The position numbers and the translations under genes were made by a program. Source: an uncultured Schlesneria sp. (lineage in GTDB: Bacteria; Planctomycetota; Planctomycetia; Planctomycetales; Planctomycetaceae). Taken from it: DNA of 45,097 nucleotides. The stretch covers positions 1 to 45,097 of the forward strand of contig CAIOKO010000187.1 of NCBI GenBank assembly GCA_903858935.1, in the 5' to 3' direction. Positions 17,032 through 17,790 of this stretch are shown here, one piece after another (the first letter of the stretch is position 1; the number at the start of each line of letters is the position of its first letter). The notes below the pieces were generated by a model, which was not told the DNA's origin, did no database searches, and was given only the letters and a program-made list of their open reading frames with translations.

Positions 17032-17061
17032 TTGTGGATGAAATTGCTGACGGTGTAATAA
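17032..17061 (+). promoter_or_regulatory. candidate sigma-70 promoter of the lexA homologue
   Basis: TTGTGG (17032-17037) and TAATAA (17056-17061) are 18 bases apart and resemble a -35/-10 pair. Transcription would begin near 17068, about 120 bases before the ATG and just before the inverted repeat at 17073-17096. Confidence 0.4.
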
Positions 17062-17072
17062 TTGCTGCTGTT

Positions 17073-17096: not shown

Positions 17097-17190
17097 GCAT
17101 GTGAACGAATTTCGACGAACCAGAAATGAATGCGGGCCAATCATTCATGGAACGGGAAGTTCCTTTCTTTGAGTGGAGAAGGCAAGCTTA

Positions 17191-17790
17191 ATGAATCCAA
17201 CGCAGAATTTGACCGCGCGACAGAACGAGATTTACGATTTTCTTCGAGACAAAATTATTGGCCGTGGATATGGGCCGACCGTTCGTGAAATTGGAGCCCA
17301 ATTTGGGATCAAGTCACCGAACGGTGTGATGTGCCACTTGAAGGCTTTGGAGAAGAAGGGTCTGATCTCGCGTGAAGCCCATATGTCGCGGGCGATTCAA
17401 TTATCGCATCCTCCACAACTTCAGACAGAACTTCCGTATCTGGGTCAGTTGATGGTTGGGGAGCCGTTTCCGACCAGTAGCCCTGGTGATCGACTCGATT
17501 TCAGCGGTCTTTTCAACCTGCCCGACCTTTGTTGTCTTCGGGTTCACGGCACCGCATTGCAGGATGATCATATCGCTGAAGGTGACACACTGATTGTCCA
17601 CAAGCAGCCAACATTCCGCGACGGCGATCTGGCTGTGATCGCCTACGAGGACGGCACGATCGGTGTCCGCCGTCTCTATCAGGAAACGCTTCGCATTCGC
17701 CTGGAATCAGCCAGAAAAACAAGTCCGCCTGAGTTCGTCAGTCGTGTGGTTGTGATTGGGATCGTGGTTGGTGTAATCCGCCAATACTGA
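17191..17790 (+). CDS. LexA-family repressor lacking the self-cleavage residues
   Basis: 199 residues, the usual LexA length. The N-terminal winged helix is intact: LTARQNEIYDFLRDKI, PTVREIGAQFG, recognition helix KSPNGVMCHLKALEKKGLI (about 7-60). The C-terminal S24 peptidase fold is recognisable (LPYLGQLMVGEP, LCCLRVHG, EGDTLIVHKQPTFRDGDLAVI, GVRRLYQE), but the chemistry is gone: the GDSM serine is Ala122 (GTAL), the catalytic lysine is Arg160, and the Ala-Gly scissile pair is Val89-Gly90. It should not self-cleave on RecA, so it is a dimeric repressor outside, or antagonistic to, the normal SOS response, or it senses something else (inference). A GTG at 17173 also opens the frame; GAGAAGG eight bases before the ATG at 17191 favours the latter. 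It is convergent with the thiolase gene, three bases apart. Confidence 0.9.
   Translation: MNPTQNLTARQNEIYDFLRDKIIGRGYGPTVREIGAQFGIKSPNGVMCHLKALEKKGLISREAHMSRAIQLSHPPQLQTELPYLGQLMVGEPFPTSSPGDRLDFSGLFNLPDLCCLRVHGTALQDDHIAEGDTLIVHKQPTFRDGDLAVIAYEDGTIGVRRLYQETLRIRLESARKTSPPEFVSRVVVIGIVVGVIRQY

Follow-up and report, generated by a model that had tools for sequence, protein, structure and literature searches.

Both a LexA that lacks its self-cleavage residues (Synechocystis) and cells with two LexA proteins (Pseudomonas putida) are already known, and the closest known systems compare as follows. The LexA protein of Synechocystis sp. PCC 6803 carries Gly-Gly in place of the Ala-Gly cleavage pair and Asp in place of the catalytic Ser, and its presumed targets are non-SOS genes (PMC3091678, PMC7567884); it is described as an exception among the cyanobacterial LexA proteins compared (PMC3091678). 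P. putida encodes two LexA proteins, where lexA2 is co-transcribed with imuA-imuB-imuC and mediates their regulation (PMC5261740). Likewise, Leptospira interrogans possesses two divergent LexA proteins with 28% identity, the second of which keeps Ser and Lys and was possibly acquired by transfer, and both repressors fall after UV (PMC3789691). In Deinococcus radiodurans, recA is not under the control of the two LexA homologues (PMC8072749), and in Bacteroidetes the SOS response is run by a phage-like non-canonical LexA, an S24 protein distinct from the usual LexA (PMC8565304). For the planctomycete phylum, an earlier report states that LexA fails to recognise the conventional E. coli motif (PMC3108266).

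Here we analysed a stretch of 45,097 nucleotides (the window) from an uncultured Schlesneria sp., whose genome (G000) comprises 7.93 Mb and is 99.96% complete. An open reading frame on the forward strand at 17191..17790, for which an alternative GTG start at 17173 is possible, encodes a non-catalytic protein of 199 residues, termed LexA1 (P1-type LexA). It matches the NCBIfam lexA model TIGR00498 over its whole length with 144.1 bits, exceeding the curated cut-off of 110.95 bits, and contains both Pfam domains of the LexA family, LexA_DNA_bind (residues 5-68, a winged helix-turn-helix; 17203..17394, forward strand) and Peptidase_S24 (residues 102-193), placing the protein within this family. 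The S24-type carboxy-terminal dimerisation domain spans residues 79-199 (17425..17787, forward strand), and alignment to LexA structures in the PDB gave a best E-value of 6.3e-24. The recognition region of LexA1, SPNGVMCHLKALEKKG, is the same as in catalytic orthologues. Structure prediction based on an alignment of 26 sequences resulted in a model of moderate confidence (mean pLDDT 78.9, pTM 0.53), in which the LexA folds are predicted to be kept, including that of the carboxy-terminal domain, with the catalytic cleft lost. The best Foldseek matches of this model were LexA structures, with full-length TM-scores of only 0.42-0.59 and higher values for the single domains.

Residue positions in the cleft were set by alignment to solved LexA structures and to 84 catalytic orthologues, for which columns 89, 90, 122 and 160 are 84/84 by construction, as they were used to define the catalytic set. 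In LexA1, V89-G90 (17455..17460, codons GTT-GGG) occupies the position of the Ala-Gly cleavage pair, A122 (17554..17556, codon GCA) that of the catalytic serine and R160 (17668..17670, codon CGC) that of the catalytic lysine, all on the forward strand; both alignments and the codons thereby agree with the assignments made in an earlier note on this DNA. LexA1 accordingly lacks the Ala-Gly pair and the Ser-Lys dyad of an SOS repressor. The statement in that note that all self-cleavage residues are lost holds for V89, A122 and R160, and is slightly too strong as Gly90 is kept. The damage to the cleft is nevertheless wider than had been described, since A88, M123, T158 and L159 (each conserved in 84/84 catalytic orthologues), I124 and N175 (83/84) and P173 (82/84) mark further altered columns. 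Structural columns, in contrast, are retained, and the invariant positions among the 13 distinct Schlesneria LexA1 sequences comprise G85, G120, I128, G131, D132, G145, G190 and R197. With the catalytic Ser and the cleavage pair lost and the DNA-binding domain kept, LexA1 resembles the Synechocystis protein, its nearest precedent.

A match to lexA1 was found in 58 of the 59 genomes searched, its own included, and an orthologue in 14 of the 15 Schlesneria genomes. In the remaining one, G014 (94% complete), we found only a catalytic LexA and no LexA1 orthologue, suggesting that LexA1 is dispensable at least there. The earlier note had held that same-genus orthologues with Ser and Lys would point to an isolated mutation; none of the 14 Schlesneria orthologues combines the two residues, which rules out an isolated mutation and renders the loss genus-wide. 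Position 122 is occupied by Gly (8), Ala (4), Asp (1) or Ser (1), position 160 by Arg (7), Lys (6) or Gln (1), and the Ala-Gly pair is kept by G008 only, so that A122, R160 and V89, proposed as a possible clade signature, are not fixed within the genus. The single Ser belongs to the LexA1 of G002, which has Arg at the Lys position and might still be weakly active. In most of the other genera and families sampled, all four residues are present in the orthologue.

In the gene tree, LexA1 is orthologous to LexA proteins from other planctomycetes. All 13 distinct Schlesneria sequences group as a single clade (SH-aLRT 98; the tree was built without the trait columns), nested in an 18-row group (SH-aLRT 97) that is completed by five catalytic sequences, including that of G015 from the sister genus g2. 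This topology reads as a putative single loss of function in the stem lineage of Schlesneria, after which the dead cleft drifted. Before alignment, six sequences classed as other or phage-like (L076, L083-L087) had been removed, and the tree is unrooted, was computed with a quick method and contains several long branches that meet. Over its 170 rows, at least five changes between the catalytic and the non-catalytic state are required, and well-supported branches force four of these; we read these changes on the unrooted tree as losses, one of the five resting on a Gimesia-type copy with Gly-Gly and with Ser and Lys kept. The degenerate state also occurs in a 37-row clade, in the third copy of G128 and in a three-row group of long branches.

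Assessing selection on lexA1, we obtained dN/dS values for the carboxy-terminal domain of 0.009 (G000 versus G001) and 0.012 (G000 versus G004), at synonymous distances of 0.43 and 0.92 and non-synonymous distances of 0.004 and 0.011, respectively. Six other pairs yielded 0.048-0.155, with dS near saturation in most, and two more pairs were saturated. For the DNA-binding domain, six of ten pairs were computable and gave values of 0-0.065, and for comparison two LexA2 pairs (see below) gave 0.04 and catalytic orthologues 0-0.17. The low dN/dS in the carboxy-terminal domain indicates that LexA1 is maintained, its dead cleft included. Strong purifying selection, with dN/dS about 0.01 between close species, hence bears out the earlier view that the gene is not decaying, and led us to reject the idea that lexA1 is a redundant paralogue on its way to loss. 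The catalytic residues do drift differently among species and the gene is missing from one of the 15 Schlesneria genomes, as decay would have it, but the recognition region, the carboxy-terminal strand and the leader of the gene are conserved, and we consider decay extremely improbable. Selection for a non-cleavable regulator, also put forward in the earlier note, goes further than these data: the varied residues at the cleavage positions point to released constraint after SOS control had moved elsewhere, and not to selection for non-cleavability as such.

Cross-genome comparison revealed a leader of ~90 bp directly upstream of lexA1 (17102..17190, forward strand) that is nearly invariant in four Schlesneria genomes. 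Pairwise p-distances are 0-0.044 up to position 17167 and 0-0.087 from there to the start codon, compared with 0.35-0.53 further upstream, whereas synonymous sites of lexA1 itself differ by 33-53% (two pairs computed). The leader contains the inverted repeats ATGAAT-N11-ATTCAT (17126-17148) and GGAAC-N5-GTTCC (17149-17163), both given for the forward strand, and by eye a short open frame crosses part of it. Upstream of the leader, a conserved block at 17033..17067 (forward strand, p-distance 0.03-0.14) was read by eye as promoter-like. None of the other loci compared, including those of G002, G003, G006 and G007, contained the leader block. We rejected an RNA element, as the leader had no Rfam match and its predicted RNA fold was no better than that of shuffles (z -0.68). 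GGAAC-N5-GTTCC is present at the gene of the window and in its closest relatives; a GAAC-type ancestral LexA box was rejected, since GAAC-N3-6-GTTC is not common to the orthologues. As the recognition region, the LexA folds and the near-frozen leader are all kept, lexA1 appears to be in regulated use. For the surrounding genes, a common upstream neighbour of lexA occurs at 5 of 12 Schlesneria and 3 of 6 catalytic loci examined and is absent at the window's own locus. A convergent ketoacyl-ACP-synthase-like gene is kept at 6 of the 12 Schlesneria loci examined, which says little, and the neighbourhood was discarded as a clue to function.

A second, catalytic lexA in the same genome, which the earlier note had suggested to look for, is indeed present. 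G000 contains exactly one other S24 match, a protein of 236 residues termed LexA2, which has AAG, GQSM and VKRL, leaving the cleavage pair and both catalytic motifs intact, and is 28% identical to LexA1. All 15 Schlesneria genomes encode a catalytic LexA other than LexA1, standing beside LexA1 in each of the 14 that carry the latter. It is of the LexA2 type in 13 of the 15, the catalytic LexA of G011 and G012 being of a different type; including G015, four g59 genomes, G130 and G077, this type was detected in 20 of 170 family genomes (E 1e-30).

The genes lexA2-imuA-imuB-dnaE2, with catalytic lexA2 first, are found in that order in G006, G008, G009 and the sister-genus genome G015; in G011 another lexA heads an imuA-imuB-dnaE2 cassette, and lexA2 also adjoins imuA in G010 and G013. 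Within the cassettes, dnaE2 shares 61-89% identity with the G008 copy. Pfam searches covered one ImuA and one ImuB (both G001) and one DnaE2 (G008), with the other loci assigned by similarity; the IMS and DNA polymerase III alpha domains scored over the Pfam cut-off, and the RecA domain of ImuA was weak and under it. G000 does not have this gene order: its lexA2 and imuAB are carried by separate contigs, the imuA and imuB frames are open and lexA2 sits ~50 bp after another reading frame. The lexA2-imuA-imuB-imuC operon of P. putida is the nearest precedent for the second LexA of Schlesneria.

To delineate candidate operators, we searched 84 catalytic lexA promoters de novo with random seeds and obtained the palindromic motif a.TgtAC....GTacA.t, with a log-likelihood of 229 compared with 27-33 in four shuffled sets; counting of exact dyads gave a less clear result and was abandoned. 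Based on these promoter sequences, the palindrome around TGTAC-N4-GTACA is likely the ancestral planctomycete LexA box. With training and test promoters separated and one of 94 catalytic promoters dropped for being shorter than 200 bp, held-out scores of ≥8 bits were reached in 70 of 93 catalytic lexA promoters and in 34 of 279 shuffles. The same threshold was reached in none of the 13 Schlesneria lexA1 promoters, which thus lack the box that an SOS repressor has in its own promoter, and in 7 of 55 promoters of all degenerate copies (39 of 330 for shuffles of these). The conserved leader of lexA1 could conceivably hold a new operator. In the sister group, which has five catalytic lexA promoters, the box is present in L012, L096 and L107 and absent from L216 and L181. 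The resident LexA of P. putida is still a working SOS repressor, whereas Schlesneria LexA1 has lost both its cleavage residues and its own box.

The motif trained on the 84 lexA promoters alone was then applied to imuAB, umuC/dinB-like genes and recA. In catalytic relatives, it was the best site just upstream of imuAB at 6 of 8 loci and lay ≤100 bp from umuC/dinB-like genes at 7 of 17 (both ≥9.9 bits; range 9.9-16.7 bits), the other 2 and 10 loci, respectively, having no box. Scores of ≥13 bits occurred at 9 of these 25 loci compared with 3 of 200 shuffled 1500-bp stretches, of which 30 contained a site of ≥9.9 bits somewhere. Before recA, weaker sites were detected for 8 of the 11 catalytic relatives examined (≥8.9 bits within 420 bp, a threshold chosen after the scores were seen; shuffles 49 of 440). 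Schlesneria displayed no ancestral box at any of 8 dinB loci and none before recA in any of 8 genomes, G007 falling just under the threshold with 8.7 bits; G015 had none before recA either. In genome scans, the ancestral box was not more frequent than the reversed pattern in G000 (17 versus 38), G002 (20 versus 23), G007 (28 versus 47) or G015 (7 versus 13). Directly beside the LexA2-type element (see below) of the G001 imuAB promoter, an ancestral-box-like site of 11.7 bits was observed (L249:2997).

These data bear on the suggestion that LexA1 is a permanent silencer, which, bound to leftover ancestral boxes, would keep a gene set off for good without release. Its DNA-binding columns are as in catalytic orthologues, so that old boxes could be bound, and the G001 site shows that one such sequence remains near imuAB. 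However, the promoters examined for lexA1, dinB and recA no longer contain the old box, the three Schlesneria genomes scanned show no over-representation of it, and a gene that is permanently off would tend toward loss, making this an unlikely function.

The stand-alone lexA2 and imuAB promoters of Schlesneria have a common element of their own, TTTCCTGTAATAATAC.TT.TGTTATCCTTAATT, with the short form TTTCCTGTAAT...GTTATCC at imuAB. Built from six sites (five lexA2 promoters and one imuAB promoter), this LexA2-type element matched four further imuAB promoters (G001, G002, G004, G010) at 36.8-41.3 bits, and no other match above 18.6 bits was found in 2.29 Mb counted over both strands. Its spacer is one base shorter at the imuAB promoters of G000 and G005. 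The exact core occurs once in G000, at imuAB (C35:41419), and nine times in the 15 genomes, each time at imuAB or lexA2, the reversed control giving 0. We did not recognise the element at lexA2 of G000, recognised it only in part at imuAB of G014, and did not recognise it at the cassette promoters of G006, G008, G009 and G015, where by eye a different repeat is present. Between the element and imuA, an IS200-like (Y1) transposase frame was seen in G000 (C35, locus L248:3314 onward) as well as in G001, G002 and G004 (L249, L250, L251; checked with Pfam in G001 only), and in G005 an apparent carboxy-terminal transposase remnant was noted by eye; the transposase seems to sit inside the SOS operon.

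From the distribution of the two motifs, we infer that LexA1 may bind the ancestral box and LexA2 the LexA2-type element. A further notion is that LexA1 acts on LexA2 itself, either by pairing with it through the S24 domain, which both proteins have, or by competing at its operators, and in doing so damps or delays the SOS response. The presence of a catalytic LexA beside LexA1 in 14 of 14 genomes would allow for such an interplay, yet the two proteins are only 28% identical, their promoter elements differ, the cleavage pair of LexA1 itself is changed, and G014 has LexA2 without LexA1. We therefore regard a partner or competitor role as quite improbable.

Considering the whole family, another strong S24 protein (among the matches listed, at ≥ ~94 bits) accompanies the LexA of 38 of 44 degenerate-only genomes, compared with 5 of 29 catalytic-only genomes, in a count that took in 77 of 170 family genomes, four of the 77 being unknown; G088, G120, G128 and G188, with both kinds, and G095 were left out. 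The same association holds by genus (11 of 14 versus 9 of 30, p = 0.004, with unknown cases scored as contrary to it), where neither genomes nor genera are independent, the designation of the second protein as catalytic outside Schlesneria rests mostly on the S24 score, and the degenerate class includes 11 sequences with Ser and Lys but without Ala-Gly. The link between a degenerate LexA and a second S24 protein is not strict, as no other strong S24 match accompanies the degenerate LexA of G126, G033, G028, G019, G148 and G149.

Several lineages display peculiarities of their own. Genus g59 (L182-L184, L186-L191) has several non-catalytic LexA paralogues per genome, an apparent expansion, with at least six degenerate copies in G122 and at least three in G120, beside a catalytic one. 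In genus g70 (L199-L207), LexA keeps Ser and Lys, with QT, QG or QA replacing Ala-Gly. The sole S24 match of G126 (99% complete) at E 1e-4 is a non-catalytic LexA (L194). Tentatively, and with somewhat less than even confidence, we propose that across Planctomycetaceae LexA has repeatedly turned into a RecA-blind transcription regulator once its SOS genes had passed to a further catalytic LexA, and that it has at times multiplied into several non-cleavable paralogues within one genome, as in g59.

For Schlesneria itself, LexA1 is probably the vertically inherited planctomycete LexA after the handover of SOS control to LexA2, and is now likely a RecA-insensitive DNA-binding regulator. The residue loss, the second LexA, the different promoter elements and the purifying selection that underlie this reading are all visible at the level of sequence; from them we infer DNA binding, dimerisation and RecA resistance of LexA1 as well as the order of events. 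In this history, read from the unrooted gene tree and the presence patterns, the ancestor common to Schlesneria and the sister genus g2 would have held a second, catalytic LexA2, which in several genomes is still the first gene of the lexA2-imuA-imuB-dnaE2 cassette. The SOS mutagenesis genes would have come under the control of LexA2, and the promoters of lexA1, dinB and recA would have lost the ancestral box, as would those of imuAB with one possible exception in G001. Self-cleavage of LexA1 would no longer have been maintained, as there were no SOS genes left to release, and Ser, Lys, Ala-Gly and supporting residues would have changed at the base of Schlesneria and then kept drifting. The DNA-binding and dimer domains would have stayed under strong selection, and LexA1 is therefore most likely still a DNA-binding dimer regulating other genes. 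RecA would not switch it off, a situation similar to that put forward for LexA of Synechocystis.

As a sub-case of this history, with which its probability overlaps, LexA1 could still respond to stress by being released through another route, such as a host protease, a ligand or a modification. A precedent is Synechocystis LexA, for which a possible phosphorylation change under salt stress is described (PMC7567884), and we consider such a route possible but rather doubtful.

Among the matches listed for literature on LexA in Planctomycetes or Schlesneria and on non-cleavable or paralogous LexA, we did not recognise the present case in the excerpts available, and the combination of a non-cleavable LexA with a second LexA, and its recurrence, look new. 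Schlesneria differs from Synechocystis in having another catalytic LexA, in a genus-wide loss that recurs in the family and in a readable change of promoter elements. It shares two divergent LexA proteins with L. interrogans, where both repressors fall after UV and the second keeps Ser and Lys, and it would resemble D. radiodurans in leaving recA outside the control of its LexA homologues. The Bacteroidetes proteins keep their cleavage residues, whereas the old LexA of Schlesneria stays in place without them.

If it did recur across the family, the proposed handover would be a path taken repeatedly from SOS repressor to regulator of something else. The genomes would then form a natural series, from g2 with both LexA proteins catalytic, through Schlesneria with the old LexA dead but kept, to G014, where the old LexA was not found. 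The candidate operators for LexA1 and LexA2 make the handover directly testable, and the series would show how a master stress repressor gets relieved of its duty.
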